64,000 nt of DNA, taken from contig JAFEMH010002514.1 of the NCBI GenBank assembly GCA_022495995.1, positions 186,001-250,000 of the forward strand, written 5' to 3'. The DNA is from Adenophora triphylla var. japonica (Eukaryota; Streptophyta; Magnoliopsida; Asterales; Campanulaceae). Below are positions 12,136-45,727 of this stretch, piece by piece. The first letter of the stretch is position 1; every line of letters starts with the position of its first letter. The position numbers were made by a program, and so were the translations under genes. The notes under the pieces are model-generated. The model searched no databases and had not been told where the DNA came from. It saw only the letters and a list, made by a program, of their open reading frames with translations.

Positions 12136-12138
12136 ATT

Positions 12139-12155
12139 TGGCGCCGTCCGTGGGA
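12139..12155 (+). other. Primer binding site of element I
   Basis: TGGCGCCGTCCGTGGGA starts three bases after the LTR end. This form is common in plant gypsy elements; I do not assign the tRNA. Confidence 0.8.
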
Positions 12156-12177
12156 AACTTTGATTATTTGCATAGAA

Positions 12178-14440: not shown

Positions 14441-16370
14441 AAAAGGCCCAGGACATTCTTGAAGCAGTGGAGCACGATACAAAAGCGTTCTGTTGATGCA
14501 TCAAATCCACGAGGCCCAAGTGCAAGTTGGGATAGACCTACCGTCCGAAATTGAAGAGGAATTGATCGAGTTCTGAAAAGCCGAAAGCTTTGTTTCGCTT
14601 GGAAACATGAAGACATGACGAGGGATAAGCAAGGATATTATTACTCACAAGTTGAACATCGATCCGACCATCCGTCTGTCCGTCAAAAGAAGGAAGTTTG
14701 CCCAGGAGCGGAACCAGATCATAAAGGATGAAGTCGAGAGGCTTCTGAAGTCCAAGATGATCAGAGAACTTCAGTACCCAAGGTGGTTGGCTAACGTTGT
14801 AGTGGTGGAGAAGAAGAATGGCAAGTGGCGAGTATGCGTGGACTTCACCGACTTGAACAAGGCCTGTCCGAAGGATCCATTCCCTCTCCCTCATATTGAT
14901 TCTCTAGTTGATGAGACAGCTGGCCACAACATCTTGACATTCATGGATGCATCTTAGGGTATCAACAAATTCAAATGGAGCCTTCGGACCAAGAAGATAC
15001 AACATTCATGACTCCAGAAGGTATATATTGTTATATTTCTATGCCCTTTGGTCTTAAAAATGCAGGGGCAACCTATCAAAGGTTAGTGAACAAAATGTTC
15101 ACAGACCAACTTGGCAAGACGATGGAGGTCTACATAGACGATATGGTGGTCAAATCCAAGCACATTGAGGATCATGTGGAGCACCTTCGAGGCATTCAAC
15201 ATCTTGAAAGCCTTCAACATGAAGCTCAATCCGGCGAAGTGCAACTTCGGTGTTAGAGCGAGCAAATTCTTGGGATATATGGTGACCAAGAGGGAATCGA
15301 AGCAAGTCCTGAACAAATCAAAGCCATTCTCAACTTGGAATCCCCTAAGAACATCAAGGACGTACAAAGGTTAACAGGTAGAGTAGCAGCTTTGAATAGA
15401 TTTATATCCAAATCATCTGATAAGTGCAGGTTATTCTACGAAGTATTAAGAAAAACAAACTTTTTCAATGGATCGACCAACATGAGGCGGCCTTCAAACA
15501 ACTTAAAGAATACTTGATGACGTCACCCCTACTCGCCAAACCCGAACATGGTGAGCATCTTTATTTATATTTAGGCGTATACGAAAATCTTTGTTAGTGC
15601 GGTATTGGTGAAGGAAACCCAAGGCGAACAACATCCTGTTTACTATGTAAGTAAGTCTTTATTAGATCTTTGAAACAAGGTACTCTCATCTTGAAAAATT
15701 AATATTAGCCTTAACTACCGCTGCTACCAAATTACGTCATTATTTTGAAACACATTCCATAACCGTTAGAACTAATTATCCTATGAGAAATGTGTTGAGA
15801 ACCCCGGAGTTGTCGGGCGGAGTTGGCCAAGTGGTCGGTCAAGTTGAGCACGTATGACATTTCATACGAGCCGAGAACGACCATCAAATCGCGAGGCCCT
15901 AGCCGATTTCGTAGCCGACTTCGGTCAAGTTTGCGGCTGAGGTAGAACTGGAAGTGCAACAACTTGAAGGTAAAACTATTCCTCGATTTTGGACATTGTT
16001 TACGAGATGGAGCTTCAAATTCCAAAGGGATTGGCTTGGGAATAGTCCTAAGATCCCCTCAAGGTGATATCATACCTCAAGCCGTATCTTGTGAATTCGG
16101 TGCAACAAATAATGAAGTGAGTATGAAGCCCTAATCATGGGTTTAACTACGGCTTTGAATCTGAATATTACACATTTAAATGTATTTGTTGACTCTCAAT
16201 TGCTAGCTAACCACTTTAATGGCGGTTATATGGCGAAACATTCCAAGATGACTCTGTACCTCCAACATGTTAAGGCTTTAGCTTCGAAATTTCTATCATT
16301 CTCTTTGGAACGGGTCCCTAGAGAAGAGAACGCAGAAAGCGAGCGCCTTGGCTAACTTGGGTTCAACTTG
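14441..16370 (+). pseudogene. pol: Reverse transcriptase and RNase H of element I, frameshifted
   Basis: The RT is recognisable from WLANVVVVEKKNGKWRVC and VDFTDLNKACPKDPFPLP, through MPFGLKNAGATYQRLV, to the catalytic YIDDMVVKSK near 15131. A stop and frame change occur at about 14955 and others near 15180, 15300 and 15370. The RNase H part is fragmentary, with FVDSQLLANHFNGGY near 16180-16225 and LERVPREEN near 16310. The whole stretch could not produce an active enzyme. Confidence 0.87.
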
Positions 16371-17715
16371 CAAATCAATGTTGCATTCTAGTATACCAAT
16401 TATTTATGTTAAGTACCGTGATAGACCAAGTTGAGGAAATTCAAGTGGTTACGCCACCTCTTTGGGGCACCGGATGCTAAACCTTCTTGGACCCAACTGT
16501 AATTGAGTTTCTTCAACTTGGAACTATTCCACCGATGTTAAGAATGTTAGATCTTTTAAGATTCGTACTTCGACTTTCGTTTTGATAGATAATGTCTTTG
16601 TTTAAGAAGTCTTTTGCGGGGCCACTACTTGAGATGTGTCGATAATGATCAAGTTGAAGTGGTGCTTAAAGAAATCCATGAAGGAATATGTGGGAACCAT
16701 TACGGAGGAAAGGCATTAGCATCCAAGGCCCTCAAGACGGGATACTATTGGCCAACCATGCGTCGAGATGCCATGAGCTACGTACGAAGTGTGATGCACA
16801 CTTGAAGACATAGCAACATCTTGCATCAACTGCCAGAGCCCCTACATCCTATAGTCTCATCTTGGCCTTTCATGCAGTGGGGCATGGATATTGTAGGCAA
16901 GTTGCCTAAAGCTCCCGGAGGCAAAGTGTTCATGTTGGCTCTAACCGATTATTTCTCGAAATGGATCGAGGCAGAAGCTTATGTACAAGTAAGAGATAAA
17001 GAGGTAATTTCATTTTTAAAGAAAAATATCATTAGCGGGTTTGGTGTACCATCGGAGATTGTATGTGACAACGGGTCACGGTTCATAAGTAAGAAGACCG
17101 GGGACTTTTGTACTGGCCTGGGGCATCAAGTTAGTCATGTCGACACTGTCCACCCTCAAGCCAATGGCCGGCCGAGTCAAGCAACAAGTTGATCATCAAC
17201 AACTTGAAAAAGCGTCTAGATCAAAAGAAGGGAAAGTGGGTTGAAGAATTACCACTTGTGCTATGGGCAGATAGAACTACTTCTAAAGGAGCCACAGGTA
17301 GAACTCCCTATTCTTTAGTATACGGAGCTGAAGCTGTAATTCCAGTTGAAGCGACGTCCCACGAGAAGGTATGGCTTATTAACTCAAGATGAAAATAACC
17401 TCTTGCTAACTCAAGATTTAGATACAATTGATGAGATCGGGATTTAGCCAAGATAAGGATGGCGGCTTATCGCCGGCGAATTGCTAGGTCTTACAACAAG
17501 AATGTCGAGTTAGAAGGTTCCGGGTTGGTGATTTAGTTTTAAGGAAAGTATTTCAAAATACAAGAGAATTGAATGCGGGTAAGCGGCTCCCAGTGGGAAG
17601 GCCCATATCTCATCGATGCCGAAGCTGGCAAAGGTGCATACTGGTTGTCAACCCCAAGTGGAGACAGAATCCCTAGAAGTTGGAACGCTATCCACTTGAA
17701 ACTTTATTTCATGTA
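16371..17715 (+). pseudogene. pol: Integrase of element I, frameshifted
   Basis: The zinc-binding part reads IHEGICGNHYGGKALASKAL, then GYYWPTM; the expected Cys pair is damaged (SVMHT). The core has [10 protein letters not shown] with the first catalytic Asp and IVCDNGSRF with the second. The Glu region after HPQANG is altered by a frameshift. The C-terminal part ([12 protein letters not shown], then [16 protein letters not shown]) is open to 17392, then fragments to about 17715. Confidence 0.86.
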
Positions 17716-17900
17716 AGTCTGGTTATTTATAACTAGACTCCTCAGGTACGGTTTAAATTTATGTCGAGTTCAATTACGCATTTCAATTTTTTACTCTTAT
17801 TAAAACATTACTGACTTGAGCGTCGGAGGGGCGTTAGCTATGCTAACGCCCAACCCTAACATAAATTTGTTTTGCGAGGTGCAACTTGAGCAAACGGAGT

Positions 17901-18183
17901 AGGTTCAACAGGTTGACACGCCAGTACAGCTGATACTTGTTGAGACCTAAGCTGGAACATGACAAACATGTTGACACGCCGGTACGGCTGATACATGTTT
18001 GAGCCTGAGGAGGACAAAGGTCAAGCATGTTGACACGCCAGTACGGCTGATACATGTTTGAACCTGAAGAAGAAAATTTCAACATGTTGACACGCCGATA
18101 CGGGCGATACATGTTGGAATTCTAGCTGGAGAGGGATAGAACTTGTTGACACGCCAGGACGGCTGATACTTGTTCTATCTCTT
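17901..18183 (+). repeat. Array of five 58-bp repeats forming covarying hairpins
   Basis: The constant part TTGACACGCC starts at 17913, 17971, 18030, 18087 and 18145. In each repeat the sequence before it pairs with the sequence about 23 bases later, but with a different stem each time: AGGTTCAACA (17901), CAAACATG (17963), GGTCAAGCATG (18019), AATTTCAACATG (18075) and GAGGGATAGAAC (18131). Each has its complement on the other side, allowing a single bulge or a few G-T pairs. The array lies between the end of pol and the end of the antisense gene. Confidence 0.88.
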
Positions 18184-18674
18184 CAAACGAATTACCTCTG
18201 ATCAAAGGTACTTATGGTTAAAAGATATTCATCTTTTCTTACGAATTAAGGTTTTGACACCTTTGCCTGGGCGCACGTTTTCACACTTCTTCAAGTTGTG
18301 AACTATTGGTTGTAACATTTTCATGTTACCTACGGTTTATAACATTTACATGTTATCTAAAGAACAAAAAAGCGTCTCTCAGAGACATAAGATACTTTGC
18401 TAAAAAACCATTAAGTGTTTTCCAAAAGATTTTTTGCAAACTAAAGGACAAGTTGGATAAGCCAACGAGTCCCTAAAGACCTAAAAAGCTTGGAGTACTA
18501 GACCAACCTAGTACCCCCAAATAAATTGTCTCGGCTCTTATGAGCCATTACAAACTAAAAAACCTTGTTTTTGGGGACACTCCCCCCATTTGTTGTACCG
18601 ACAGAGGTACACAAATAAAGTAAAAATTGTTTTTTCATCCAAAATACCCAAAAGTTTTAAAATGTTTTTTAAAC

Positions 18675-19510
18675 TTAGTGGCCTGCTGCCGCCGGTGTTG
18701 TGTTTTCCCCTTGGTCGTTGGGTGTAACCATAATGGTGTTCAGATCCTTGTTGGCATCATCAACTAGGGCTTCCAAGGCCGCGGAGTTCACTTCCTCTGC
18801 ATCCGCTGGCTCCCCAATATGGTCCCCCAAAACATTTCTCTCGTCCTCCAGGTTCCAAGTTATGGCTTGCCCATTTTTATATTCTTCAAACATCTGAATT
18901 CGAGCCTCTAACAAAGTCTTGGTGGCATGAAATTTAAAGTTTCCCTCCGCAGCCGCAAGTTCTTTCATGTGAGCCTTGTTCTCAGCCCTGATGGCTTCCA
19001 CTTCTTTTTCTAAGCGTTCAAAATCCTTCCTCAAACTTTCCATTTCACCAGCGTGCTTGTTTGCTTCCTTCTTCCACTTCTCCACTTCCTTGGCACTTTT
19101 TGTGGCCTCCTTCTTCGATTCTGCAACCTCATGACTGAGCCTAGCCGCCTTGATCTTCAATGCATCAATGTGGGCCACAATAGGGGTCATAATTTCCTGC
19201 ATAAAAGGAAGCATTAATATTCTATCAAACTCCTTGAAAAAACTCAAAGGTCCCTTCATCTTTACCTTCTCAACAACAGCTCTGAACTTTTCTCCTAACT
19301 TTCCCATATCCATGTCACCACTTGTGTCTGTGGTTTCAGCATCCACTAGCTTTCTCTTCTTCGTATCCCCCTTCTTCTTGGATGCAATCATATCGGAGCT
19401 AGCCACAACAGACACTGGGGTGGGGGGTTTACTATCTTGCCTTGCTAAACTCTTTGCTCTAGCCGCAGCAAGTAGGCCAGCAGCACTAACGGTGTCCTTA
19501 GAGAAGGTGG
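18675..19510 (-). CDS. Antisense gene of element I, last exon
   Basis: The frame is open on the minus strand from an acceptor site (TTTTTGCAG, ending at 19511) to the stop at 18675. The product is Lys/Glu-rich and most likely a long coiled coil (EVAESKKEATKSAKEVEKW, then ESLRKDFERLEKEVEA), preceded by a basic patch KKKGDTKKRK that could be a nuclear localisation signal. The gene is antisense to gag-pol. Its function is unknown. Confidence 0.72.
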
Positions 19511-19594
19511 CTGCAAAAAGGTTGAAAAGTTAGAACGAAACAAAGGAATTAGAACAAGTTGGAGATAGGCAAAGATTTCAGGTATTTAATTAAC

Positions 19595-19799
19595 TTTGTA
19601 GACATTTGGATGGGCTCAGATAAAGTTTCTTCAAGATTTGTTTCTTGGGCTTCTTCAGGACCAACTTCCTCGTCGTGATCTGCAACAAATTGAACTGGTA
19701 GTACCTTAAAAGTTCTCACTAACAGGTCCAAATCATAAATCTTGCTCACATTCTCCTCCGTGTTGTCCTTAAAAGGATAGAGCACATCCAATTTCGCAA
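19595..19799 (-). CDS. Antisense gene of element I, middle exon
   Basis: The exon starts after an acceptor TTTGGCTTAG (AG at 19801-19800) and continues the frame of exon 1 (AKLDVLYPFKDNTEENV). It contains an acidic stretch EEVGPEEAQETNLEE. The best-looking donor, GTTAAT at 19594, would put the last exon out of frame by one base, so the end of this exon is uncertain. The frame itself stays open to 19549. Confidence 0.5.
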
Positions 19800-19881
19800 C
19801 TAAGCCAAAGAGAAAATTGGAGAATTAGTTACATGAGTTATTAGGGAGAATTATTAGAATTAGAAAAATTGCCTATACTAC

Positions 19882-20464
19882 CTTGGGACCTCCATTTGAA
19901 GTTGGCACCCTCATCCTTCACCAGGGTGCTCTTCTTGGCGAAAAAGAATTTGTTCTTCCACCCTCTATTGGCGGTATCAACATTGTCATTTAGAAAGGAC
20001 ATCCTACCAGCTTTAACCCTAAAGCCATACCTCCCTAAACCAAAACTCCTAATTTCATTTGTGAGAGCGAATTCCTCTAAACCTATTTCCAACTCTGTTT
20101 CTGCATTTAACCTTACGAGGGTTTGTAGGCTTCTCCAACCTTGGGGCATAAGTTGGGCATAGTTAAGTTTGGTAGCAGCAAAAAACTTGGTGATTAAGAT
20201 CGGGAAGGGGAATTTCAAACCAATAGTGAAGGGGTATTCAGGGAAACATACCCATTCAGGGGAATAACATTCTGGGGTTAGGTCAAGGTGGGTAAAAAAC
20301 TCAGTTTCATATGCCATGGCATGATTCTTCTTGATGATCTCTAAATTGGTAGCGGGGATTCTACACTTCTCTTTTTCAGGGTTCTTCAACATGTTTTGGG
20401 TGAGAAAACCCACGGGCAAACCCTCTCCACTCTCGATTAAAGTCACCGCTTTTCTCTTCCCCAT
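19882..20464 (-). CDS. Antisense gene of element I, first exon
   Basis: It starts MGKRKAVTLIESGEGLP at 20464 and is open to a donor site AAG|GTAGTA (GT at 19881-19880). The protein has a pattern like Pfam Transposase_28 ('putative gypsy type transposon'): YPFTIGLKFPFPI, then AQLMPQGWRSLQTLV, then GWKNKFFFAKK. The family assignment is by pattern only. No stop interrupts it, in contrast to the broken gag-pol on the other strand. A possible TATA box lies about 170 bases upstream. Confidence 0.75.
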
Positions 20465-20631
20465 TTTTTCAAACTTAAACAGAAAATCAAAGATGGAATT
20501 GAAAAGAAAACAAGAAACTCACCGTCAATCTCTACTTGATTTTCCTCTCCAAACCGTCTTCTCTGGTCCCTCTTCTCGAAATCTTTGTGAAAGTAACGTT
20601 TTGAAAAAGAGAGTTGGAACAGGAGTCTGTG

Positions 20632-20638
20632 TATTTAT
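20632..20638 (-). promoter_or_regulatory. Possible TATA box of the antisense gene of element I
   Basis: On the minus strand CCATAAATACACAG, about 170 bases before the start codon at 20464. The position resembles that of the TATA box before the antisense gene of element O. Confidence 0.45.
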
Positions 20639-20801
20639 GGAGGTTGAGAGTGGTTGGGACTATAAAACAAATAAATCTTTTTGCCTCGGGAAACTTCTTA
20701 AAACCGTCCCATCGCGTCCCTTTTAAACCGTCGTTCTTTTCTTATTTTGGCAAACTTTTTGAAATTCTTTTGTCTCTTTCTATTCTTCATTTTAAAATTC
20801 A

Positions 20802-20818
20802 AAAAGTTTGGGGGCAAT
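20802..20818 (+). other. Polypurine tract of element I
   Basis: AAAAAGTTTGGGGGCAAT immediately before the 3' LTR start TGTTGGG. Confidence 0.85.
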
Positions 20819-21410
20819 TGTTGGGCCCTACATTTTCAGTCAACATGTTTACAACTTACACTTAACAACTTGGTACTAACAACTTGAATTGTTCTATTTA
20901 CCACTTGGTTTTCTACAGGTTGGGACCAGTAACGCTATTCCTATTTTATAGGGCACGTGTCAAAGGAAGCAATGACTAAGTCAAAAACGTTTCTTCAGCA
21001 ACAAATCTTATCTTCTCCCTCAAACAGCAAATGGCGGAAATATCTCTATTGGATCAACCTCTTTCCCGAGTTTATAGGCCCATGATTCTCTTTGTAGTTA
21101 GCCGTTGTGGAGAGGTATAAAAGAGACATACCACTGTATTTTGCACACACATGATTCACTAGCTTAAGGTCTCTTTTAATACGCTCATAGTACTGTAATC
21201 CTCAAGAACATTTAGTAAACTTTCGGTCAAGGCAGGAGCCAGATCCTCCCGGGGTTTTATGCCGGCGAACAAGTTGTTCAAGGGCTTTCCCTAGTCAACA
21301 AACATCTTGTGTCCATTTCTATTCAACTTGATAATCATTGTACCTAGATTCTTATCACTTTAGTCACTTTTCTTCTCATCTAATTCGCTTGTTGAAATTT
21401 GACCAAAACA
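20819..21410 (+). repeat. 3' LTR of element I
   Basis: 592 bases, identical to 11544-12135 except at three positions. TATA box at 21116-21123. Followed by the GATGC duplication. Confidence 0.96.
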
Positions 21411-21415: not shown

Positions 21416-22276
21416 ATTTGATGATTTGGTTGTGCCAGGGAAGAATGAGAGAGGTTATGTTCCCCAAAGACCACAGAGAGGGAAAAAGAATATTCCATCT
21501 CGATACAGCTTGATTTATGATTTCTGTGAGGTGAGCAAAAAGGACTATAGGGTGACCATCCTTAGTAAAAGATTTCATGGCTCAATTTAGGTAAACCTTT
21601 ACCACAGATGCTACTAGGGTAGCCTTCTTCTATGGCCAATTTGAAGCTGGCCTTAGGTTGCCACTTGACCCTTTTATCAATGAATTTTTGGAGTGTGCCA
21701 ATGCTTTACCCCTTTAGTTGGGAGCCAACACCTATAGGGTCTTAGTATGTTTTGCCATAGTGTGTAGGTTTTTGGGATACAAACCTTGTATGAGGGTGTT
21801 CAAGGAATTCTTTTGTATTAAATATAGTGGAACTGACCTGAGTGTCAGTACTCCCTCTAAACCCAATTCTCGCAAGGTTTTCACATACCTTCCCAGTAAA
21901 GCAAGTGGGTGGAACTCCCATGTGGTTGTAGTAGAGAGCAGATTAGGATGGGAATTTCCTTTGCCAACTGCTGATACAGAGCCCATAGATGAGGGGGACT
22001 ATTGGGAGCCAATCTGGCATTTTGACTCATACCAGAAGTTATGTCGTCTGGCAGATAAGGGGCCTATCAGTTGGGAGAGCCTAGGAACCACCAAGTATAA
22101 TTATATCCAAGCCGGGATGATGGATGGGGAGGGAGAGGTGCAACCTCTGGTGCCTGTTGGTAGAGGTATGATATATCCTGACTGGGTTACCCATGCCTTG
22201 GGTAGATTTGAGGACAAGTGTCAGTTTTGCCAACGGACATCCAACTACTGCAAGGAGAATGGGGAGCATGTTGGTG
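21416..22276 (+). pseudogene. Antisense gene of element O, second part of exon 1
   Basis: It continues the frame from 11543. A frameshift lies near 21570. Stops at 21592 (TAA) and 21715 (TAG) fall in an otherwise conserved stretch (FEAGLRLPLDPFINEF, stop, LGANTYRVLVCFAIVC) that resembles Transposase_28. The exon ends at 22276 before a donor GTAAGG. The splice to 22547 keeps the frame. Confidence 0.75.
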
Positions 22277-22546
22277 GTAAGGGTTTACTGGTTTTTATTT
22301 GACTCGTCAATTGCTAGTCCGCATGTGTAATTCTTTGTTTGCACATTGTACTATTTTGAATTGCATGCGTATCTCTTAGCTCGTCAGTTGTTATCTCGCA
22401 TATAGGATAGTTAGCTTGTTCAAGCTAGTTGGCACTTAGAACTTGTAACTTGTATGTGACATGATTAGTTCGTACATAGAACCTACAGCTCGTATGTAGA
22501 AATTTCCCATGTTGATCTAACTCTTTGTCACTTTGATCTTTTGCAG

Positions 22547-23228
22547 TTTTGACCCCTGAGTAGGAAGCGAAAATGGGTTGCATAATAGCGATGTCTGACA
22601 GGAAGAAAGCCAAGAAAGCCCATGGTGCCGCCAATGCTCGTGCCAACAGAGAGAGGGAGGCAGAGAGGAGAACCGGTTTGTTGTCCAAGGACAACGTGGG
22701 GATGGTGCCCATGGAGGAGATTGAATCAGAAGATCCTCTGCAAAGCGGCACCCAATCTAGGGATGTGACTGAAGGGGGCGATGAATCCAATAGGTTGATT
22801 AGACCAAATCCAAGCTCCGACCCAAACCTTGAGGCCAACGCTGCGACCTCTAGAGCCGAGATAACTGGGGCTAGCCCTCTGAATGTTGTGCACATTGATG
22901 ATGAAGCTATGGAGGAGGAGGATGAACGTGCTCTGAATACAAGGAAAAGATCAAGGACTAAGAAGGGCAAGGCCGTCTCTTCGAGCCAACTTCCTCCCCC
23001 CATGCCTTCTCCGAGGAGTCAAGAGTCCATTAAAGCTCAGATGCAGAGGCTTAGTGAGGTTCCCCCCCCCTTGTTGGGGTGAACAGCATGACTCGCCGTT
23101 ATCTCGAGGTGACTCTTGGGCAAGTAGTGGTGAGGAGGGCCATAGATGTTGACCTCTTGGCCCATTTTGCTGATAAGGGGATGACCCCTGAGGAGTTCTC
23201 AGCTCGAACTGGATTGGTGCATAGCGAG
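22547..23228 (+). pseudogene. Antisense gene of element O, exon 2
   Basis: The acceptor is TTTTGCAG (ending 22546). The exon encodes a basic, then acidic, low-complexity region with a possible nuclear localisation signal (TRKRSRTKKGKA). A TAG at 22561 and a run of nine C (23062-23070), where the frame shifts, break it. After the run the frame gives MTRRYLEVTLGQVVVRRA. It ends at 23228 before GTAATC. Confidence 0.72.
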
Positions 23229-23335
23229 GTAATCTTTTACTTTCCCTTTCTGTTTAGTCGCTTATTCTGCTAGTTTGTCAGTTTAACCTCCGAATCTTGG
23301 CCGAGCTAATACTTCAATAATTTTCTTCAATGTAG

Positions 23336-24211
23336 TCTGTCACCATGACTGAACAAGCTAAGAGATCTTGGAGGGATTCTATTGAGAGGGAGAGGCAGGC
23401 TCTGCATGATTACTCCAAGAAGTCATAAGAGTTGTCTGAGCTGAAAGAGAAATATAACGACCTTGATAACTCTTTTGATGCTCAGGAGTTGGTGAAGAAA
23501 AAGGCGCTGGCTGATTGTGATAAGGCCTTGGGGGATCTGAAAGCTGCTGAGACCAAGCTTGGGGAGATAAGTTAAGAGAGGGATGCTGAGCGTCTGGCTC
23601 ATGAGAAGACGAAAATTGAGCTCGCCACAGTCTCAAAACTTCTTAAGGACAAAAATTATTTTTTGACTGAGCTGAATGAAGAGCACAACGCTGCCAGGGC
23701 TAAGTGGAAGGAGGATCTAGAGAAGGTTGGCCAGGATGCTGCTAAGAGGGCTGTTGATAGCTTCAAGGATGGGGATGAATATCATAACACCATTGTGGAC
23801 AAGGCGAAGGGCTTCTTGGATTTAGGCAAGCGTCACATGGCTCATCGAGCTTTTGTCGACCCAGACTCTGATGTCTCCTTGGAGCAACTAGCTCGCTGGG
23901 CCTATGCTCCCCAATATGACGCGGCTGCTCGTGGTGGTCACTCGGTCGTGCCATATTCTGAAAATGATTTGGCCTTCATTGCTCAAGAAGACCAAGAAGA
24001 TGGTTGCGAGCCGTGGGAACCTCCAGCCTTAGCCCTAAGGACCTTTGACACAGCGTTGTAGGAGATTGAGGATGCTGAGGAGATGGAGGTTGATGATGAA
24101 CTGGAGGAACATGTTTTTTCTGATTCAGGTAACCCCATAGGCCCCCAGCAGCAAGAAGGTGAGGATCGAGCTGACATAAGCATTCAAGTTGACGCTGGCC
24201 AAGACCCTTGA
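23336..24211 (+). pseudogene. Antisense gene of element O, exon 3, coiled coil
   Basis: The acceptor is TTCAATGTAG (ending 23335). The product is a probable coiled coil (SIERERQALHDYSKK, then ELVKKKALADCDKAL) followed by a C-terminal domain (LDLGKRHMAHRAFVDP) and an acidic tail. Three stops, at 23426, 23573 and 24059, are each TAA or TAG where CAA or CAG would give Gln. The stop at 24209-24211 ends the gene. It lies tail to tail with pol of element O. Confidence 0.75.
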
Positions 24212-24596
24212 TTTTATCTGAATGAGGTTGTAACGGACAAGTCCTAAACAATATTTTGTTTTTTGTTTTGAAACTATCTGAACGCCTTGGCCCAGCTTTT
24301 GGGAGGCTTGATACTTAGTAACTTTTATTTTGCACAAGTCTTGGCCCGCTTTTGGGAGACTTAATTATATACAATCGTAGCTGACTTTATATACTTGTTT
24401 GTTGTATGCTTTTGGTTTCAGCATGTGTGTGTCGAGCTAGATGTAATAGGATGAATAAGTCACTCTAAGCTTAGGGTCGACCTAGTTTCATGGTGACATA
24501 GTCAAACTTAGACTTGTAAGGATTTTGTGAACTAGATTGACTCAGAGTCGAACCTGTTTAAGGGATCAAAGCTAACCAAGGATCGAGCTGATTAGG

Positions 24597-24908
24597 ATGA
24601 GGCTGACTAAGAGCCGAGCTCGTTAGAACGAAGTCGACTAAGAGTCGGACTTGTTAAAGAAAACAAAACTGATTAAGAATCGAGTTTGTTAAAACGGAGC
24701 TGACTAAGAGTCGAGCTCGTTGAACGAAGTCGACTAAGAGTCGGACTTGTTAAAGGAATAAAGCTGATTAAGAATCGAGCTTGTTAAAACGAAGTTGACT
24801 AAGAGTCGAGCTTGTTGAACGAATTCGACTAAGAGTCGGACTTGTTAAAGGAACAAAGCTGATTAAGAATCGAGCTTGTTAAAACGAAGATGACTAAGAG
24901 TCGAGCTT
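24597..24908 (+). repeat. Array of about ten 30-34-bp covarying hairpins
   Basis: The superunit is 95-96 bp, made of three related units. Each unit has the form arm, GACT or GATT, AAG loop, AGTC or AATC, one bulged G, arm. Complementary outer arms are AAGTC/GACTT (24631, 24727), AAACT/AGTTT (24666), GAGCT/AGCTC (24697) and AAGCT/AGCTT (24761, 24856); AAGTT/AGCTT at 24792 uses one G-T pair. The units at 24822 and 24887 have one mismatch. The array lies between the antisense gene end (24211) and pol end (25059). Confidence 0.88.
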
Positions 24909-25058
24909 GTTGAACGAAGTTTAGCACAGTGTTTGGTCGAATAGAACATGTGATTTTATATTAAAATAGGAGCATGCTTACATCAAGTGGAAAGCTAGAA
25001 CTATGATAAATTCAAACTTGGGAGCTGCCTTAGCTTTGAACTGAACTAGGGACTTGAA

Positions 25059-27038
25059 CTAGAAGTAGTACATGATGAGGTGAGTGGCATGCCATGGATG
25101 CTTCAACTCTTCGCCATCTGGGTGAGATATCATGTAAGTCCCCTCCTTGATGACTCGAGTAACAATATAAGGACCTTCCCAATTAGGAGATAGTTTATTC
25201 TGTTGAGTTCTTCTTCCTGTTGCTTCAATTTTTCTCAACACGTGATCTCCTACTTGGAATGATCTTGTCTTCACCTTCTTGTCGTGGTAACTTTTAGTCC
25301 GCTGCTTGTAGTTGACCATCCAAAGGTAAGCCTTGTCTCGCTTCTCGTCGACCAAATCCAGGTTGATCAGTCTGCTAGTGTCGTTCTGCTCTTGATCGAA
25401 GAAGGTTACTCTAGCAGTAGGAAATCGCAGCTCAGCAGGTGCCATGGCCTCTGATCCATATGTTAGAGCAAATGGGGTTTCCCCCGTGGGCCCCCGAGTG
25501 GTTGTGCGAACTGCCCAAAGAGCAAGGGGAAGTTCGTCCAACCAGTTGCTGCGTTGACCTACCTAGCCCGTCTTGAGTGAGGATAGTACGAGCTTGTTTG
25601 CTGCTTCAGCTTGCCCATTTCCTTTGGGATAGGCGACAGATGATTGCCAATGCTTGATTCCCACTCTATTCATTTCTTCTTCGAATGCTCTGGAAAACTG
25701 TAAGCCGTTATCTGATACTATAGCTCGAGGGATCCCAAATCGACACCAGATGAAGTCATGTATGAAGTTGATGGCGTTTTCCTCTGTTATGCGAGCTAGT
25801 GGCTTTGCTTCGACCCACTTGGTAAAATAATCAATTTCAACGATCACATACTTGCAATTTCCCCGGGCGGGAGGGAAGGGTCCAATCAGGTCGACGCCCC
25901 ACATATCAAATGGCCAGGCAGCGATCACTGGAGTCTGTTCCGTTATAGGCATATGAGGTAGGTTGGCAAACCTTTGACATTGATCACATTGTTGAACAAA
26001 GTCATGAGTGTCAGCTCTCATGTGTGGCCAATAATACCCCAAGGTGATCAATTTGTCGGCTAGAGTTCTGGCCCCCGGGTGTCCACCACAAATTCCACTA
26101 TGCACCTCGTGCATCAACTGAGTGATCTCTTGAGGGTGAATGCACTTCAATAGTGGCCTGGTGTATGATCTTCTGAACAGCATGCCCCCTTGGATAACAT
26201 ACCTCGGAGCTTTCTTTTTGATAGCTCGAGCTTTCTTCTCGTCTTCAGGGAGCTCGCCACTTTCTAGGTATGCCTTCATTTTCTCGATCCAGCACTTGTT
26301 GTAAGCCCAATTTCTCAAGGGGTCTTCCACACATTGAATTTTGACCCTTTCATACTCTGGATTCTCAAGGTAGGAGATGGGTTCTTCATGTGGTTCGTCT
26401 GAAGTGGCCAGCTTTGAGAGTAGGTCGGCTAGCTCGTTGTCTTCTCGATCAATCCTCTGAATTTCCCAAAACTTTAGGTCTTTTGTCAGTTCCTTCACTA
26501 GGTCGTGGTACTTGACTAGAGTAGAGTTCAGCACCTCGTACTCTCCTCGGACCTGGTTGACTTTCAACTGTGAGTCACAATATGCCATGATTTTAGTCGC
26601 TCCAAAGCACTTTGCGTACTCGATGGCTGAAACCAATGCTTCGTATTCTGCTTGGTTGTTAGAGGCATCAAACTTGAACCTCAATGACTCCTCATATATT
26701 GTCCCAGACTCTGGTTCAATCAGAACAATCCCAGCTCCACTGACACTCTTGGTTGCTGATCCATCCGAGTAGACTTTCCAACAATCGACGGGTAGGCTAG
26801 TGACGACTAGGGACTCAGGATCTTTCCCTTTGACTTTCTCCTTTTGAGCTCGCATCTCGCTATCTTCCTTAGTGAACGTCAGCTCGACCAAGAAGTCTGC
26901 TAGAGCTTGAGCCTTCAACGCCTTTCGAGATTGATACTTGATGTCGAATTCCGTGAGGGAAATTGACCAATTGAGTAAGCGATCTGAACTTTCTGGCTTA
27001 TGTAGAATTTTTCTCAAGGGCGCATTCGTGAGCACCAC
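25059..27038 (-). pseudogene. pol: Additional RNase H and integrase of element O
   Basis: One frame with a single stop at 25563-25565. The additional RNase H is VYSDGSATKSVSGAGIVL, then SNNQAEYEALVSAIEYAK, then YCDSQLKVNQV. The integrase zinc site is HEVHSGICGGH with CDQCQRF, and the catalytic positions are WGVDLIG, IVSDNGLQF and GQAEAANK. The C-terminal part ends LSPNWEGPYIVTRV and WHATHLIMYYF at 25059. Before 27038 a TGA at 27063 interrupts the same frame. Except for stops this is nearly intact, so the element is fairly young. Confidence 0.92.
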
Positions 27039-27062
27039 AATAGGATGAGCAAGGTAATAAGC

Positions 27063-28670
27063 TCACAGCTTTCTTGAAGCCACGACTAAGGCATAGGCGA
27101 CCTTCTCTGCATTGTAGTACCTGCCTTCAACATCTGATACAGCCTTGCTTACATAATATACAGGCTTTTGAAGCCCCTCCTCTTCTCGAACCAACACTGC
27201 AGTAACTGATTTGTCTCCCACAGATAGATACGCGAACAAGGTCTCACCAATAGTCGGGCTGCTCAATAGTGGAGGAGTAGCAAGGTACTCCTTGAGTTGT
27301 TGGAACGACGAATGACATTCGGCCGTCCACTCAAAATTTTTTGTCCCCCTCAATGATTTGAAGAAGGGGAGAGACCTTTCAGTCGACTTGGCTATAAATC
27401 GACCTAGGGCTGCCACCCTGCCGTTAAGTCGCTGCATCTCCTTTACACTTGCAGGCTCCTTCATCTCGACTAGAGCCTTGATCTTCTCTGGGTTAGCTTC
27501 TATACCTCGTTGGGACACCATAAATCCAAGAAACTTGCCAGCTGCCACTCCAAATATGCATTTGCTCGGGTTGAGCTTCATGTCGTTTGCTTGCAAATTG
27601 GCGAACGTTTCCTTTAGGTCGACCACGTGACGTCCAACCTTTGTTTTGATGACCATATCGTCGACGTAGGCCTCCATGTTTCGGCCAATTTGTGAGACAA
27701 ATACCTTGTTAACCATGCGTTGATAGGTTGCTCCTGCGTTCTTTAACCCGAACGGCATCATGTTATAGCAATAGATGCCTCCAGCTGCTTGGAAAGCTGT
27801 CTTCACCACGTCATCCTCATGCATCTTGATCTGATGATAGCCTGAATAGGCATCTAGGAAGCTGAGGGTGGAGTGGCCAGCAATAGAATCCACGAGCTTG
27901 TCAATCCTTGGGAGAGGATAGCTGTCCTTTGGGAAGGCAAGATTGAGGTTGGTGAAGTCGACACACATTCTCCACTTGCCATTCGACTTCTTCACCATGA
28001 CTACGTTGGCTAACCAGGTCGTATGCGTGGATTCCTTAATTATACCTGCACTCAAAAGTTTTTGTACCTCGAGTTTGATGGCTTCTTCTTTGTCACGAGC
28101 CAAGTTCCTTAATTTTTGAGGCCTTGGCTTGATGGCCGGGTTGACTTCCAGCCTGTGAACCGCGACCTCCTCCTTGATCCCTTTCATGTCCTCAACTCGC
28201 CATGCAAAGACATCACTGCTTTCCTTGAGCAACTCAACAATCTCTAACCTTTCTTCAGGTGACAGCTGCTTCCCTATCTGAATTTTCTGCTCGGGATGGG
28301 CTAGGTTGGTGATTACTGACTACAATTCGTCCACAGCTTCTAGCTCTGGACCATCTCTGAACTGCGGGGTCTCGATGATGATCTCTCTGACCCTCTTCCT
28401 TTCCTCGGCTCCCAAGTGGGGAGCTTCCTCAGCAATCATCTCATCTAGTTTGTCTGCAGTCTCACTGGTGGTGGCCCCCGAGTTATTGTCGATCTGGAGG
28501 CATAGCTTGCCTATGGAGACTTGGTCGACCATAACTGTATCCGGATCAACCATGGTGGTTTCAGAGTGACGTGTCGACTCAGTCATGATCTCGTCATGCG
28601 AGTGATAGGTCGACTCTTCCACAATGGTGATTGTAGATAGTCGAGTAGTTTTGGTGACTGACTGAGACAA
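27063..28670 (-). pseudogene. pol: Reverse transcriptase of element O
   Basis: The RT has WLANVVMVKKSNGKWRMC and VDFTNLNLAFPKDSYPLP, then MPFGLKNAGATYQRMV, then AYVDDMVIKTK with the catalytic Asp pair. It continues through FGVAAGKFLGFMVSQRG into a degenerate first RNase H (LFAYLSVGDKSVTAVLV), where the usual Asp is missing, as expected in Tat elements that rely on the additional RNase H. The N-terminal linker (28670-28323) is in the same frame, separated by a TAG at 28320. Confidence 0.92.
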
Positions 28671-28682: not shown

Positions 28683-31181
28683 TTATGCGGTCTCAATCTC
28701 TAGCTCTCTCTTCTTCCTTTCACGAAGTACATGATCAAGATATGCTCGAGCTGTGCCTTGTACACAGCCGACTCCAGCTGGTGTGGGGAATTTAACTCGT
28801 TGATGGGGGATTGAGGACACCATTCCAAGTGCGACCTGGCCAGGGATTCCAAGAATAGCAGCATAATCACTATTGACATCTATGATAATAAATTTTACCT
28901 TAGACACGATCCTGTAGGGATGCTGTCCTAGGTCGACATCCAGCTCAATCTGCCCCTTAGCATCAACTCGGTGGTTTGTGAAGCCCTCCAATATGCCATC
29001 ATACCTTTCGAGCTGCTCGTTTGAGAGACCCATCTCTTGGAATGTCTTATAAAACAGAATATCCTTGTAGGCCCCTGTGTCGACTAAGAGTCTGGTCGTC
29101 GTACATCCATCAATGAGTCCTGGGATGACAAAAACTTGGTCTCTAGCCGCCATATTAGTTGGTAGCTCGTGAGGATAAAAGCTGATCACCTCATCTCTAA
29201 CGTGGCTCCTTGGCGGTACATGTGGGGCTTTGTTGAGCTGAAAGATCTTATGCTTGATGGCTGTATTGCTGGCTTGCTCAGTAATAACACCCAGATTCAG
29301 TCTAGGCTGCCTTGGTTCCTGATGTCCACCTGCAGGTCGCTCACCTCCACCGCCTTGAGGTCTTTTAACATATGCGTCGAGCCTACCTTGTTCGACCATT
29401 CTCTGAATTATACGTTTCAAGCTCATGCAATCCTCTGTGGTATGGCCTATATCCTTTTGGTACTCGCAGTACTTGGATTTGTCCCTTCTGAACTTATTTG
29501 CTGGGTTCATTGGGGCAAGTGGGGCCAGCTCGACCGCATTCATAATCTCAGTTCGACTCACCGTTAGGGGAGTGAAAGCCTCAGGCACCTTTTCTATCAC
29601 CCTGGTCCTGTTCTTACCATTCTTGTTATTTCCCCCATTCTTGACTGAGTCCTTCATATCATCAGCGACCTCAGTCTTGGGGCCTTTCCCATTCTTCTTT
29701 TCTTTTCTCTCTTCGGCCAATGCTACGTTGTAAGCCTTTTCAAATAAATCTTGTCGAGTAGTGACCGTTCGAACTGTTAGCTCGTAATCCATGTCCGCAG
29801 AGGAAATTCCACTCCTAAAGCAATTGATCACCTCCCTGTCTGTGAGGTCCTCCTCTATTTTGTCGACCATCTCTTTAAACTTGGTGTAGTAGCTCATTGA
29901 GCTTTCATTTTTTCCTTGCACCAGGTTGTTGAGATCGGTGACAGTCATCCTCCGAGCTCCAGCAGTCGAGAAGCGATCTAAAAACTTTATTCTCATATAG
30001 GTCCAGGTCGAGATGCACCCCATTGCCAGACCATTGAACCATGTAAGGGCTGCCCCTGTGAGTGTGCTGATGAGTGCATTGCACATCTTGTCGTCCTCAT
30101 TGGAGACAAAGCACATGGTTGCTTCTAGGTGCTGTATGTGGTTCTTGGCGTTGGTTGCACCTGAATACTTCTCTAGGAGAGGCAATCTGAAACCGGGAGG
30201 AGGTCGACGGTCAATCAATTCCTTAGATAAGGGACGAACAGCAAAATCTTTGTGCTCGACCTTTCCTGCATCAGCTTTCTTTTCAGCTTCCCATTGCTCG
30301 AACTTTCTCTTCCATACCAGCCATTCCCTAGCATCTGGGTTGTCATCCTTAGCTGGAGGGACATCGTTGGATCTCTGCCTCTCACTCCTAGGGGGAGTCA
30401 CTTGTTTGCTCCTTCTGTCTTGGTGAGAAGGCGACCTAACTGACCTAGTCGGCAACCTGCGCCTATCCTCCCTTATGGGCGACCTGCGCCTACCATTTCC
30501 GACTGGTGACCTACGCCTATCATCCCTTATAGGTGACCTTCGCCCATTTCGGTCCCTGTGGGACTGTGACCTCTGCGTCCTTGCTGGAGATCTCCTTAAG
30601 CTCCGACTAGCTTCCAACCGTGTCCTCAGGTCGGACTGAGCCTCTTGCTCTCTATTTCTGTTGAGACTGACCCTCAGATCGTCACTTGGGACATGAATAG
30701 GCGATTGAGGCCGAAAAACCATCCATTGGTCAACATTTTGTCCCACAGTCTCCTTTGGGCGAGCATTCCTAGCATGCTCCCTATTTGAAACCTGAGAGGG
30801 AGCCATCCTCTCTGACCTTCTATCCGCCTGTTCTGCCTCCTCCATTGCCAATAACTCGGCCATAATCTGAGCTCGCTCCATCAGCATTTCTTTTCTGCTC
30901 AAAGGGTTGGATGAGGGACCTGCCCTATTTCCAACATTCATTTGTCCAGTTGGACGCTTTGGAGGAGGTGGAACTCCTTGCCCCTCCATAGGCCGCTTAT
31001 CTCTCCTTTCATCTGGCAATCCCCTGCCATCAGCCACACTGTTAGATCGTGTTGCCCTAGCATGTTGACGTGGTGGAGGGGGAGGAGGCAAGTTAGCATT
31101 TTGAGTGTTCGCATTTGTGTTATTGTTTCCTTCTTTGTGCCCGAGTGAGGCCTCGGATACATGTCCATCCGAAGTCACCAT
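28683..31181 (-). pseudogene. gag: gag-protease of element O, 832 codons
   Basis: The start is the ATG at 31181, about 60 bases inside the LTR. An Arg/Ser-rich stretch with repeated RRSPIR (about residues 198-275) is followed by the gag core (AALTWFNGLAMGCISTW, about 380-480), a knuckle-like CEYQKDIGHTTEDC (about 585; relatives have His where Gln stands) and an aspartic protease (LLVDTGAYKDILF, about 695). The TAA at 28683 lies in frame with the RT linker, so it is probably a mutated Gln codon; programmed readthrough is possible but less likely, given the other stops. No frameshift is seen. Confidence 0.9.
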
Positions 31182-31240: not shown

Positions 31241-31243
31241 AAC

Positions 31244-31903
31244 TGATGCCGCAGGAAATGTGCTTATCAATCTTCCTCCACGTGGCAGGACTGATCACTT
31301 GGCTCCTTGACCTGAAAACCAGAACCCTCGACTAGCCGGATGTGTCTCCGGCTTAGACCCTCGGGCGTGAGAGTAAGTATATGAATTGGAGAGCAAAAAT
31401 ATATTGAATAAAGATAATTCAGATAACAAAATTGCAGTTACCTCATAACTGTGGTAGTGATGATGTATTTATAGTTGATGAGTGCGGTTATTTTGGTGGG
31501 GCTACATGAGCTTCGTAATTCATGGGACAGCTACTTGTCATGGGAACGTGTCCTGGATTGGCTCCTGAATTGTAGGGAACCGTTTACGGAAAGATTTGAA
31601 GCACGTGCGTCTGTATCATTTAGGTCGACGCTTGCTTATTAGGTCGAGGTCGCCATTTGAGGTTAGGTCGACATGACTGACGGGTAGAGCTGGATCGTAC
31701 CCGAATTAGAGCATGGATCGTTGAGTCGGACCAAGCTAGGTCGGGACCTTGGAGGTCGGACAATGAGCTTAGGTCGACTGATCCTGTTGCTGGGCCTTGG
31801 GCCTTATGGTAATTGGGCCAGACTCATTAAGAATGTGGAGGCCACGGCTGCCTGTGATTGGGCTTTACTCGCTTGGCCCAACTCGACACTTTTGGTATGT
31901 TCA
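31244..31903 (-). repeat. 5' LTR of element O (element orientation)
   Basis: 660 bases, the same length as 9947-10606. The minus-strand TATA box is RC of 31466-31473. It is followed on the plus strand by the duplication ACGTC. Confidence 0.94.
31466..31473 (-). promoter_or_regulatory. TATA box of the 5' LTR of element O
   Basis: TATAAATA on the minus strand, matching the direction of gag-pol. The other LTR has it at 10169-10176. Confidence 0.65.
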
Positions 31904-33398: not shown

Positions 33399-34075
33399 CA
33401 TTTTAGGCGACCAATCTAAGGAGACCAAAAAAAAAATTGTTCGCCTAAACAATCTTTAGGCAACCAAAACAAAGCCTAGTCGCCAGAAGTTACTCTTTCG
33501 CAACCGCTTTTAGGCGACCAACATTTTTGACGCTTTACCCGAGTAATCGTGGCCTAAAAAAGATTTTTGGTGGCCACAACTTTGGCGAAAAATCTAATGA
33601 TCGCCATACATACACAATGGTGACAAAGTCTTTCACGACCAATCATTAGTCACCTTACATTGTCTTAGGAGACAAACAAAGACTCTCGTCACCTTAGAAA
33701 AAACTTTATGCGACCAAATAAAACATTTGTCTCCTGAACATATTTTAGGCGACTATTCCCATGTGGTCGCCTCAAACAATGAAGTTTAGCCGACTATTTT
33801 TGACTCGTGGTCGCCTCAAACGGAGTTTAGGTGACTAATTCGTTTTGGCAGCCTAAAACAACAGAGTTTAGGCGACTATTTTGTTCCTTGGTCGCCTTAA
33901 ATCGAGTTTAGGCGACAATATCTTTTTTTGGTCGCCTAAAACAACAGAGTTTAGGCAACTAGTTTTTTGCTTTTGGTCGCCTCAAACAAAATTTAGGCGA
34001 CTGTTTGGGCTCTTGGTCGCCTTAAACAGAGTTTAGGCGACTATTTTGACTCTTGGTCGCCTAAAGTACCAACTC
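33399..34075 (+). repeat. Subterminal repeats of the CACTA transposon
   Basis: Many copies of TTTAGGCGAC and of its reverse complement GTCGCCTAAA, alternating so that each pair forms a hairpin. Such arrays bind the transposase accessory protein in En/Spm elements. Confidence 0.85.
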
Positions 34076-34942: not shown

Positions 34943-37174
34943 ATGGATAAAAGTTGGATGCATCTTTCCAACAAATTTTCTAGGGAACTTATAGCTGGGG
35001 TTGATAGCTTTCTTGAGTTTGTGATACCACATAATTGCAATTCGTCTGGCCTGATCCCGTGTCCACGTGCCAACTGCAACAACATGGCATTTTATTGTAT
35101 CTCCAAAGTGAAATGTCACTTGTTGCGGAAGGGGATGAAGTATAAGTATACGACGTGGACACATCACGGTGAACGTTTAGATGCTGCTTCTATGTCATCA
35201 CAATCTCAACCGCCTGACCAGCAGTATTTTGTTGACAATGATCAAGTGATGGGCATAATAAATGATGCCTATCCATTTGCATCAATGCATCATAATACTG
35301 TAGATGAGAGCATAAATGACATGCATAATCAAGAGATCTTCGACTATGAAGAACTCTTGCAATAGGCCTTGCAAGAGTTATACCCGGGCTGAACACAATT
35401 CTCTTCACTTACTGGAATTGTAGAGTTACTACATTACAAAGTCAAGTCTCATACTGCCAATTGCCAGTTTAATGATTTGTTAGAGATAATGCGACGTATG
35501 CTTCCCGAAGGAAATACACTGCCTGTTGACACTCGCAGAGCATTCAAGGTGTTGAAGAGGTTGGGGTTGGGCTATAAAAAAAATTCATGCTTGTACAAAT
35601 GATTGTGTATTGTATTATAAGGAATATGAGGTTCTAAATATTTGTCTCGTGTGTGATCACCCAAGATACAAGCCTAGTTCGGGGTACGGGAAGAAAAAAG
35701 TTCCACACAAGGCAATGTTTTACTTTCCACTAACACCGCGATTGAAACGGTTGTATATGTCATCGCATACTGCAAAAGACATGAGATGGCACAAGGAAGA
35801 AAGGGTGGATGATGATGTTTTGAGGCATTCTGCTGATGGAGACGCGTGGAAGTCATTGACTTTGACTATCCTGGTTTTGCATCAGAGCCTCAAAATATAA
35901 GGTTAGGGCTTGCTACCGACGGTTTCAATCCATTTGGAGATATGAATTCAAACCATAGCACGTGGCCTGTTGTCGTGGTTCCTTACAACTTACCACCTTG
36001 GAAGTGTATGCGGAAGGGGTTTACAATGCTAACTATGCTTATTCCAGGTTATCCCAGAAAGGAGATAGATATTTATTTGCGACCATTGGTTGATGAGCTG
36101 AAAGAGCTTATGGGTGAATGGTGTACAAACTTTTGATAAGTACTCTGGCACACAATTTAATTTGTGGGCCATGCTTATGTGGACTATACATGATTTCCCT
36201 ACTTATGGTATTACATCAGGTTGGAGCACTGCCGGTTATAATCCATGTCCGATTTGCAAGGATGACGTAACCTCTAGTTGGGCCGCTGGAAAGGTTTGTT
36301 TCATGGGGCACCGTAGATGGCTGCCTTCTGATCATCACTTGCGGTATAACACCTGCAAAGATGACTTTGATGGTAGAACGGAGCTCCGTGCACCTCCTCA
36401 TGAATGGTCTGGGGAAGAAATATTAGAAAAACTGAATGAGCAACAATTTCCTACATTCGGGAAAAATGATAGCTCTTATTTACAAAGGCCTATGGAAAAT
36501 AGTAACTGGAAAAAGAGGAGCATATTTTTTGATCTTCCGTATTGGTTGAAGTTAAAGCTTAGGCACAATCTTGATGTAATGCATATTGAGAAGAATGTGT
36601 GTGATACTCTTGTTAACACTATTCTCGGCATAGAAGGAAAGTCAAAAGACACGCCTAACGCAAGGAAGGACTGCATGGAGCGGGGGATAAAGAAACGCTT
36701 GTGGTTGCAAAGTAAAGGTAACAAGTGGATAAAGCCTCATCCTATTTTTACGGTTAAACCAATACATAAAAAAAATTCTGAATTTTTTTCTTCTGTTAAG
36801 TTTCCTGATGGGTATGCTTCTAATATATCATGATGTGTAAGGAGAAATGATGGGAAATTGTTAGGGTTAAAGAGCCATGATTGTCATGTTCTATTGCAAC
36901 GTTTGGTCCTAGTTGCTATTAGGGGATTCCTTCCTCATCTTGTGGTAGAACCGATTACAGAATTGTCACGATTCTTCCAACATTTATGTGCCAAGACTCT
37001 ACGCAAGCAAGATGTTGAAAAGTTACAACATGAGATTGTATTAATCTTGTGCATGTTTGAGCAGATTTTCCCCCCAGCTTTTTTCACAGTCATGATCCAC
37101 CTCACGATTCATTTAGCGTCTGAAGCATTGCTAGGTGGGCCAGTCCATTATCGTTGGATGTATCCTTTTGAGAG
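34943..37174 (+). pseudogene. TNP2-type transposase, first part
   Basis: The start MDKSWMHLSNKFSRELI begins the transposase-associated domain. The TNP2 core follows (CPVCDHPRY-like ICLVCDHPRYK, LGLATDGFNPFG, DFPTYGITSGWSTAGY, LKLRHNLDVMHIEKNV), then a DUF4218-like part (HCHVLL-type SHDCHVLLQRLV, LCMFEQIFPPAFF, GGPVHYRWMYPFERL). Stops lie near 35363 and 35393. Frameshifts lie at an A run near 35580 and near 35850 and 36110, and a stop near 36831. It ends at a donor GT (37175). The enzyme would cut and join the CACTA ends. Confidence 0.88.
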
Positions 37175-37737: not shown

Positions 37738-37778
37738 ATTTCAAAGATGAGTGAAGCATACTATGATGAATTAAAGGC
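37738..37778 (+). pseudogene. TNP2-type transposase, exon cut by element B
   Basis: After the acceptor ATCATAG the frame gives ISKMSEAYYDELKA. The reading resumes at 47746 beyond element B and its AAGGC duplication, giving LARGP, the expected motif. Confidence 0.8.
37774..37778. other. Target-site duplication of element B
   Basis: AAGGC at 37774-37778 and 47741-47745. Removing element B with one copy restores the transposase frame. Confidence 0.93.
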
Positions 37779-45726: not shown

Positions 45727-45727
45727 C

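Follow-up and report, generated by a model that had tools for sequence, protein, structure and literature searches.

A tandem array of hairpins with covarying arms in a probable Retand retrotransposon from Adenophora triphylla

Ten short hairpins lie in tandem between two converging genes of a plant retrotransposon, and their arms differ from unit to unit in a coordinated way. Is this array kept by selection on the structure of an RNA, or could the same pattern have been produced by the way that the element is copied? We addressed this question in a window of 64,000 nucleotides from Adenophora triphylla var. japonica (the window is the whole stretch of DNA that was analyzed, and all positions refer to it). 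If the hairpins are selected RNA structures, then such arrays gain a testable function, and their fixed place despite the turnover of their sequences would be explained. If they were made by template switching, then the covariation misleads about function, which would matter equally for the finding of RNA genes. We conclude that the array, which is of a kind listed with unknown function, may work as folded RNA.

The retrotransposon and its lineage

Comparing the window to itself revealed two LTR elements, one inside the other, which we call O (outer) and I (inner). Element O is a Ty3/gypsy LTR retrotransposon on the minus strand (9946–31903) with gag and pol domains. Its LTRs (9946–10606 and 31243–31903) are 97.6% identical, with 16 substitutions in 661 sites. 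The gag ORF (28683–31181, minus strand) matches Retrotrans_gag (E = 6.7e-13), and pol (25059–28232, minus strand) contains the Pfam domains RVT_1, RVT_3, Integrase_H2C2, and rve. More precisely, the reverse transcriptase ORF (27063–28232, minus strand) has RVT_1 and RT_RNaseH_2; next come the RNase H-like RVT_3 and then Integrase_H2C2 and rve (25563–27038, minus strand); and the C-terminus of the integrase (25059–25562, minus strand, with the ORF ending at 25059) has a match to SH3_Tf2-1 (E = 2e-5) that is below the cut-off for that family. The antisense gene region is on the plus strand (21718–24061), with ORF pieces at 21718–22302, 22564–23082, and 23576–24061, and element I sits upstream of it.

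The domains of O point to a lineage. Retand/Tat elements combine the Ty3/gypsy order of reverse transcriptase, RNase H, and integrase with one more RNase H, which lies between the last two (PMC6317226), and O has both features. It also has the antisense ORF between pol and the 3' LTR that is expected of this group. The region from pol to the 3' LTR is reported to be 2.9–6.6 kb in Retand elements (PMC11963269); from the coordinates, and with the nested element subtracted, it is about 4.6 kb in O, which is inside this range. In the nested element, this region is about 3.1 kb (with the end of pol read by eye). The domain TRP28 is described from the antisense ORF of 97% of Retand clusters (PMC11963269). 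The antisense region of O has a weak match to this family (Transposase_28/TRP28, PF04195; E = 0.026; score of 15.2 bits, cut-off 26.2 bits; profile positions 36–68 of 69), and among the 25 families listed for the two antisense ORFs of I, this one is absent up to E = 1. Judging from these domains, element O is probably a Retand type of Tat Ty3/gypsy element. For both O and I, the name is likely rather than proven, because the TRP28 match is weak in O and absent from I.

The RNase H–integrase part of O is 39–45% identical to 12 aligned relatives, and a protein search gave many named plant proteins among the best 120 of 1434 matches, with the top match at 43% identity. In IMG/VR, GTDB contigs, and phages or plasmids (tblastn), the matches were 25–41% identical and mostly to the RNase H part; these were bacterial or archaeal records or viral contigs, and none was recognized as a plant element. 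Other protein scans of IMG/VR gave no match at all. For IMG/VR and GTDB, the statements about matches cover the best 80 of 148 loci and the best 80 of 323 loci, respectively.

The 3' UTR tandem repeats of Ogre/Tat elements were reportedly described by Macas in 2009 as a source of satellite DNA. Another report also has the tandem arrays between pol and the 3' LTR seeding plant satellite DNA (PMC7004042). The Ogre/Tat repeats, including those of Gmr9 from soybean, resemble the array of O in their place, their short monomers, and their interleaved types, but no stem structure is discussed in the portions of these reports that we consulted (PMC7004042, PMC3305785). Retand elements are already known to carry antisense ORFs and tandem arrays in the region from pol to the 3' LTR, and in these features O resembles the lineage of Retand from Silene, Grande from maize, and RIRE2 from rice (PMC11963269). 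A 2025 survey of 617 assemblies found arrays in about half of the recent Retand elements and described them as family-specific and of unknown origin and function (PMC11963269). In the main text of that survey, the words hairpin, inverted, secondary structure, and stem do not occur, and "palindrom" occurs twice, only in the title of a reference. Word searches of the available text of four other papers found no mention of the structure of such arrays (PMC6317226, PMC3305785, PMC7004042, and PMC7264820), and the titles and abstracts listed in the literature searches did not mention it either. Thus, the place of the array, the antisense genes, and the presence of arrays were already known; within the literature searched, covarying hairpins in an array appear to be new.

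The array and the pairing of its arms

The ten hairpin units of 29 nt each span 24596–24911, in the spacer between pol and the antisense gene, which converge. (TRF reports it as 24583–24921 with a unit of 31.) Units 1–5 are at 24596–24624, 24627–24655, 24662–24690, 24693–24721, and 24723–24751, with loops at 24609, 24640, 24675, 24706, and 24736. Units 6–10 are at 24757–24785, 24788–24816, 24818–24846, 24852–24880, and 24883–24911, with loops at 24770, 24801, 24831, 24865, and 24896. The units were found by searching for TAAGA, which contains the AAG loop, but the gap-free spacing of 30 to 35 nt leaves no space for further units that such a search would overlook. Two decayed units at the edge, outside this motif, were added afterwards: one at 24530–24558, with a CAG loop at 24543 and 11 of 12 pairs, and one at 24565–24593, with its loop at 24578 and 7 of 12 pairs.

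Taken 5' to 3' along the plus strand, the unit runs as follows: AAC; an A or a G; one arm of five bases; GACT or GATT; AAG; AGTC or AATC; G; the partner arm; and GTT. Variants occur. This gives a stem of 12 base pairs (3 + 5 + 4) with an AAG triloop and one unpaired base in each arm. The plus strand is the antisense strand for O (and the sense strand for I). On the minus strand, which is sense for O, the loop reads CTT and the bulged G becomes a C on the 5' arm. An earlier note on this DNA had reported ten AAG-triloop hairpins with a bulged G, and all ten are there. However, the stem is longer than it had stated, with three more base pairs (AAC/GTT) past the unpaired base on the 5' side. It had also listed two units with one mismatch. 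In the nine-bp core, units 8 and 10 do have one mismatch each, but there is also a G-U pair in unit 7 and there are two mismatches in unit 1, which is itself a decayed edge unit. Across units 2 to 10, the departures from pairing are two mismatches and two wobbles.

The unpaired bases are more constant than the stem. With the edge units counted, 11 of 12 units have AAG as their loop (CAG in the other) and all 12 keep the bulged G. Among the ten units, 14 of the 24 stem columns vary, while only one of the five unpaired columns does; this is the unpaired base on the 5' side, which is A or G. A constant loop and bulge with changing arms is the pattern of a recognized RNA hairpin, although a set of five unpaired columns does not allow a strong test.

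We compared the pairing of the arms to 500 shuffles of the letters on the 3' side. The ten units (9 distinct rows) reach 96.3% pairing over 108 cells and a covariation score of 0.345, versus 0.212 when shuffled; none of the 500 shuffles reached either value. Both sides have changed in 5 of the 12 pairs, which was reached by 1 of 500 shuffles. With the edge units included (12 units, 11 distinct rows), 92.4% of 132 cells are paired and both sides have changed in 7 of 12 pairs, and no shuffle reached either of these. A different measure, the number of further pair types, was not above the shuffles (463/500 reached it for ten units and 368/500 for twelve). Sliding the partner by 1 to 3 columns reduces the pairing to 20–50%. 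A stricter test, in which the outer arms were swapped among units, was less strong: 80 of 20,000 permutations for all ten units, and for the 8 distinct arms, the units' own pairing ranks 1152 of 40,320 (~3%). Cells that form a wobble pair on one strand only number 5 for the plus strand and 2 for the minus strand in the ten units of O, and 3 and 2 in I, so there is no clear preference for a strand.

We also simulated neutral evolution with 19 substitutions in the stem, which is the parsimony count on a tree that we assumed for the ten units, without exchange between units. The simulations had 0.56 pairs with changes on both sides on average and at most 4, and none of the 20,000 runs reached 5. 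By the covariation score, by the number of pairs changed on both sides, and by this simulation, the arms change in concert beyond chance, as the earlier note had proposed. These results make it very improbable that the array is a plain minisatellite, in which a hairpin that formed by chance was then duplicated. Tandem arrays that differ between families are common between pol and the 3' LTR (PMC11963269, PMC7004042), but a minisatellite does not explain the five compensated pairs (0 of 20,000 neutral simulations, given the assumed tree and no exchange between units).

The ten units are not ten independent witnesses. They form a 95-bp higher-order repeat of three units (TRF, 24539–24920, 87% matches), and there were few independent events. 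Because the units are three types plus their variants, it is the five to seven compensated changes that are the real evidence. From the divergence of the LTRs, we calculate that about 2.6 changes would be expected in the 216 stem positions since O was inserted, so the array may have been near perfect at that time. Our preferred explanation is that selection on RNA structure kept the arms paired while the element was active. We hold this view tentatively and would give it a little less than an even chance.

The chief alternative, and a serious one, is template switching. Here the growing strand, in reverse transcription or DNA synthesis, folds onto itself and is extended with the opposite arm as its template, so that hairpins are both created and repaired. 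Compensated changes would then arise in one step, without any role for the RNA, and slippage at the hairpin would yield a tandem array as well. Template switching has been documented as a maker of compensated changes in RNA genes (PMC8794818). Also, between unit types A and C, two neighboring pairs have changed together, which is what a single switch would produce. On the other hand, copying through both segments of the stem would remove the bulged G, and none of the 12 units has lost it; nor is the loop inverted in any of the 12. (A switch that was confined to one segment of the stem would spare the bulge.) Overall, we consider template switching to be a somewhat unlikely source of the covariation.

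The array also folds more stably than expected by chance. The 312-nt array has folding z-scores of -7.9 as plus-strand RNA, -5.5 as minus-strand RNA, and -6.7 as DNA, and in each case none of 100 shuffles was as stable. Because any hairpin unit that is repeated ten times would score well, we also permuted the columns of the units in register, which keeps the repetition, and folded every unit alone. The permuted units matched the summed stability of the real ones in 2 of 1000 cases for the plus strand and 5 of 1000 for the minus strand. In a cruder permutation with a fixed period of 31 nt, which is off register, none of 100 were as stable on either strand. The pattern GAYTAAGARTCG, with at most one mismatch, has 12 matches in the window versus 0.94 expected, and 11 of the 12 are within 24539–24903. 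A 17-base pattern had one exact match in IMG/VR, which by our own estimate is about what chance would give in a collection of this size.

Two further hairpins lie between the antisense gene of O and the array, as seen from the fold and the sequence. The first (24284–24307) is GCCT-TGG-CCC ... GGG-AGGC, and the second copy (24336–24362) is AAGTCT-TGG-CCC ... GGG-AGACTT. By eye, one pair differs between them by a compensated change.

The nested element and possible roles of the hairpins

Element I is a Ty3/gypsy element on the plus strand (11544–21410). Its LTRs (11544–12135 and 20819–21410) are 99.5% identical, with 3 substitutions in 592 sites, and it is flanked on both sides by a perfect 5-bp target site duplication, GATGC. 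Its reverse transcriptase is recognizable at 14619–15712 in two frames, with no ORF of 120 codons there. Its antisense ORFs are on the minus strand (18675–20518), at 18675–19529, which has coiled-coil-like matches, and at 19841–20518.

Element I also has an array (17905–18176, plus strand), with five hairpin cores at 17905–17943, 17963–18001, 18022–18060, 18079–18117, and 18138–18176; in some units the outer arms reach beyond these cores. As the earlier note had observed, this array is unrelated in sequence to that of O and yet is in the same place, between pol and the antisense gene. The units of I do not have the "same architecture" that it saw in the two arrays. They are about 59 nt, and in most of the fold on the plus strand, outer arms of at least 9 pairs lead to a 3x2 internal loop; next come two pairs, then a bulged C and three more pairs, which close a five-base loop instead of a triloop. 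The inner part departs from this common fold in units 1, 2, and 4, and unit 5 has two T-T mismatches.

Compensated changes beyond chance, which we found in O, are weaker in I. In the five rows of the I array, 92.9% of 70 cells are paired (5 of 70 are unpaired), and the covariation score was reached by 1 of 500 shuffles. The number of pairs with changes on both sides (3) was reached by 65/500 shuffles; if only Watson-Crick pairs are considered, both sides have changed in two pairs of the outer stem. Among all arrangements of swapped arms, the units' own arms rank 2 of 120; for the outermost flanks by themselves, the ranks are 7 of 120 (plus strand) and 16 of 120 (minus strand). The in-register permutation gave the I array the counts that were found for O, 2 of 1000 (plus strand) and 5 of 1000 (minus strand).

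The mean folding z-scores (plus/minus strand) are -1.27/-1.74 for the O array and -1.57/-1.47 for the I array, versus -0.07/0.01 for gag-pol of O, 0.02/0.01 for the antisense region of O, and -0.02/-0.06 for gag-pol of I. The spacer of I between pol and the antisense gene (17711–18680, plus strand) contains 9 perfect hairpins versus 1.2 in shuffles, and 0 of 60 shuffles had as many. Examples are at 17829–17851 (with a 10-bp stem), 18312–18329, 18339–18356, and 18495–18514, and the second and third of these differ by one compensated pair. The spacer of O is not enriched in perfect hairpins (2 versus 0.9 in shuffles; reached by 13/60); this count misses its bulged stems, which the folding z-scores do catch.

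The hairpin arrays might instead be spacers that prevent self-silencing. If both strands fold locally, then transcripts with overlapping 3' ends would avoid forming long double-stranded RNA for a plant Dicer; in a variant of this idea, the hairpins help to end both transcripts. Both elements have their hairpin arrays where genes converge, each strand is structured (z = -4.8/-5.0 in O and -3.7/-3.0 in I), and in maize Grande, antisense transcription from its own promoter has been reported (PMC7264820). But this role would not require a constant loop and bulge, and we view it as improbable.

If selection on RNA structure is correct, then the array of O would supply the 3' region of the element's RNA with a series of hairpins, in the stretch that separates gag-pol from the antisense gene converging on it. 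A binding protein may recognize the loop and bulge that stay constant; candidates are the Gag nucleocapsid, the protein encoded by the antisense gene, or a host protein. The bound array might then control the export, packaging, or stability of the element's RNA. The array would grow and shrink by slippage of reverse transcriptase or by unequal exchange, which could have given the 95-bp higher-order repeat. A multi-copy platform for an RNA-binding protein is a candidate function, but in this specific form we consider it unlikely. More speculatively, the arrays of Retand elements in general could be fast-evolving structured RNAs: the sequence would be replaced in each family, a chain of hairpins with constant loop and bulge would be kept where the sense and antisense genes meet, and each array would co-evolve with its own RNA-binding protein. 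We are more doubtful of this broader proposal.

The constitutive transport element of simple retroviruses, along with other multi-copy hairpins that bind proteins, is comparable: its stems are repeated, its unpaired residues are constant, and it lies in the 3' part of a retroelement RNA. The O array shares these traits, but it has ten copies, is in a plant element, and has no match in Rfam. In a search of 9900–32000 against Rfam, the one match below E = 1 had half of the cut-off score and was outside the array, so no described RNA family was found. We also considered two other kinds of RNA. A likeness to the iron-responsive element (given the bulged C on the sense strand) was dropped because the loop and the stem do not fit. 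A Dicer precursor was dropped because the stems are only 12 bp, which is too short.

Palindromic arrays and other hairpin-rich regions

We ran the fixed-period permutation on 21 arrays in the window, chosen among 43 TRF rows that overlap each other; the selection excluded short arrays at 34147, 34653, 43391, 45238, 45512, and 53804. In four arrays, no permutation out of 100 was as stable for one strand or for both: O (0 and 0), I (0 and 4), 33783–34065 (0 and 0), and 48355–49155 (0 and 0). In the remaining 17 arrays, both strands had counts of 3 of 100 or more. The next best was a short 27-bp tandem array at 30451–30544, inside the gag ORF of O (3 and 4 of 100).

The two other structured arrays are palindromic: 33744–34065 (AGGCGAC/GTCGCCT) and 48355–49155 (GCGACGG/CCGTCG). 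They are probably parts of CACTA-type DNA transposons; a Transposase_21 ORF is at 36114–36833. We used them as controls and picked their units leniently, so that each arm could have as many as 5 mismatches in 11 positions. In the array at 33744, four of 12 rows were out of register, with the 3' arm joined to the next 5' arm, and dropping them reduced the number of pairs with changes on both sides from 3 to 0. The 8 units in register have 72 of 88 cells paired and changes on both sides in 0 of 11 pairs. The array at 48355 (15 units, 12 distinct rows) has 111 of 132 cells paired and changes on both sides in 1 of 11 pairs; this is the outermost pair of an edge unit and disappears without that unit. 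The control arrays largely keep the sequence of their arms and vary in the middle. The O array does the reverse: its arms covary and its middle is constant. Although the samples are small, this difference speaks against a sequence-specific DNA site in O and against a process that repairs palindromes everywhere, as template switching might (0 and 1 compensated pairs of 11).

The hairpins of O could nevertheless be DNA-level sites with dyad symmetry for a dimeric protein, such as the one encoded by the antisense gene, similar to the subterminal repeats of CACTA elements. Those repeats are tandem palindromes as in O, but the two such arrays in this window largely keep their arms and vary in the middle. 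Palindromic arrays, probably of DNA transposons, and a Transposase_21 ORF in the same window fit with this idea, and TRP28 was predicted to bind DNA in the Retand survey (PMC11963269). Given that the control arrays have the opposite pattern of conservation and that the bulges break the dyad symmetry of the O units, we regard DNA sites as quite improbable.

Perfect hairpins are also in excess, more mildly, in some other parts of the two elements. The antisense region of O has 7 versus 2.9 in shuffles (3/60 reached this), gag-pol of I has 10 versus 6.0 (5/60), and the LTRs of O have 2 each versus 0.4 and 0.6 (4/60 and 6/60). There is no excess in gag-pol of O (5 versus 5.6; 37/60) or in the antisense region of I (1 versus 2.2; 50/60). 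A copia element at 1–7724, with LTRs at 1–1252 and 6470–7724, has perfect hairpins with loops of 3–6 nt throughout, including in its coding part. It has 44 perfect hairpins versus about 9 in shuffles, with 29 in the internal part (versus 6.5) and 7 and 8 in the LTRs (versus 1.4 each). That this element is rich in hairpins over its full length, as if some process made hairpins, is a point in favor of template switching.

The window contains several other repeats. A pair of long repeats at 37778–39732 and 45727–47740 is ~97% identical and perhaps represents LTRs; the sole ORF of at least 200 codons between them (39749–40471) has no match in Pfam. A 31-bp tandem array at 39945–40628 has about 22 copies and is partly in an open frame, and the consensus of a short array at 8956–9062 resembles it by eye. 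A degenerate array of TTTAGGG, the plant telomere repeat, is at 49598–49889 and adjoins the palindromic array at 48355–49155. Finally, a 35-bp tandem array at 52066–52855 has about 23 copies, mostly within an open frame, and is enclosed by a pair of repeats (50270–51442 and 61942–63116) that are 79.8% identical. These repeats may be the LTRs of a third gypsy element, within which reverse transcriptase, RNase H, and integrase are found at 58373–60901.
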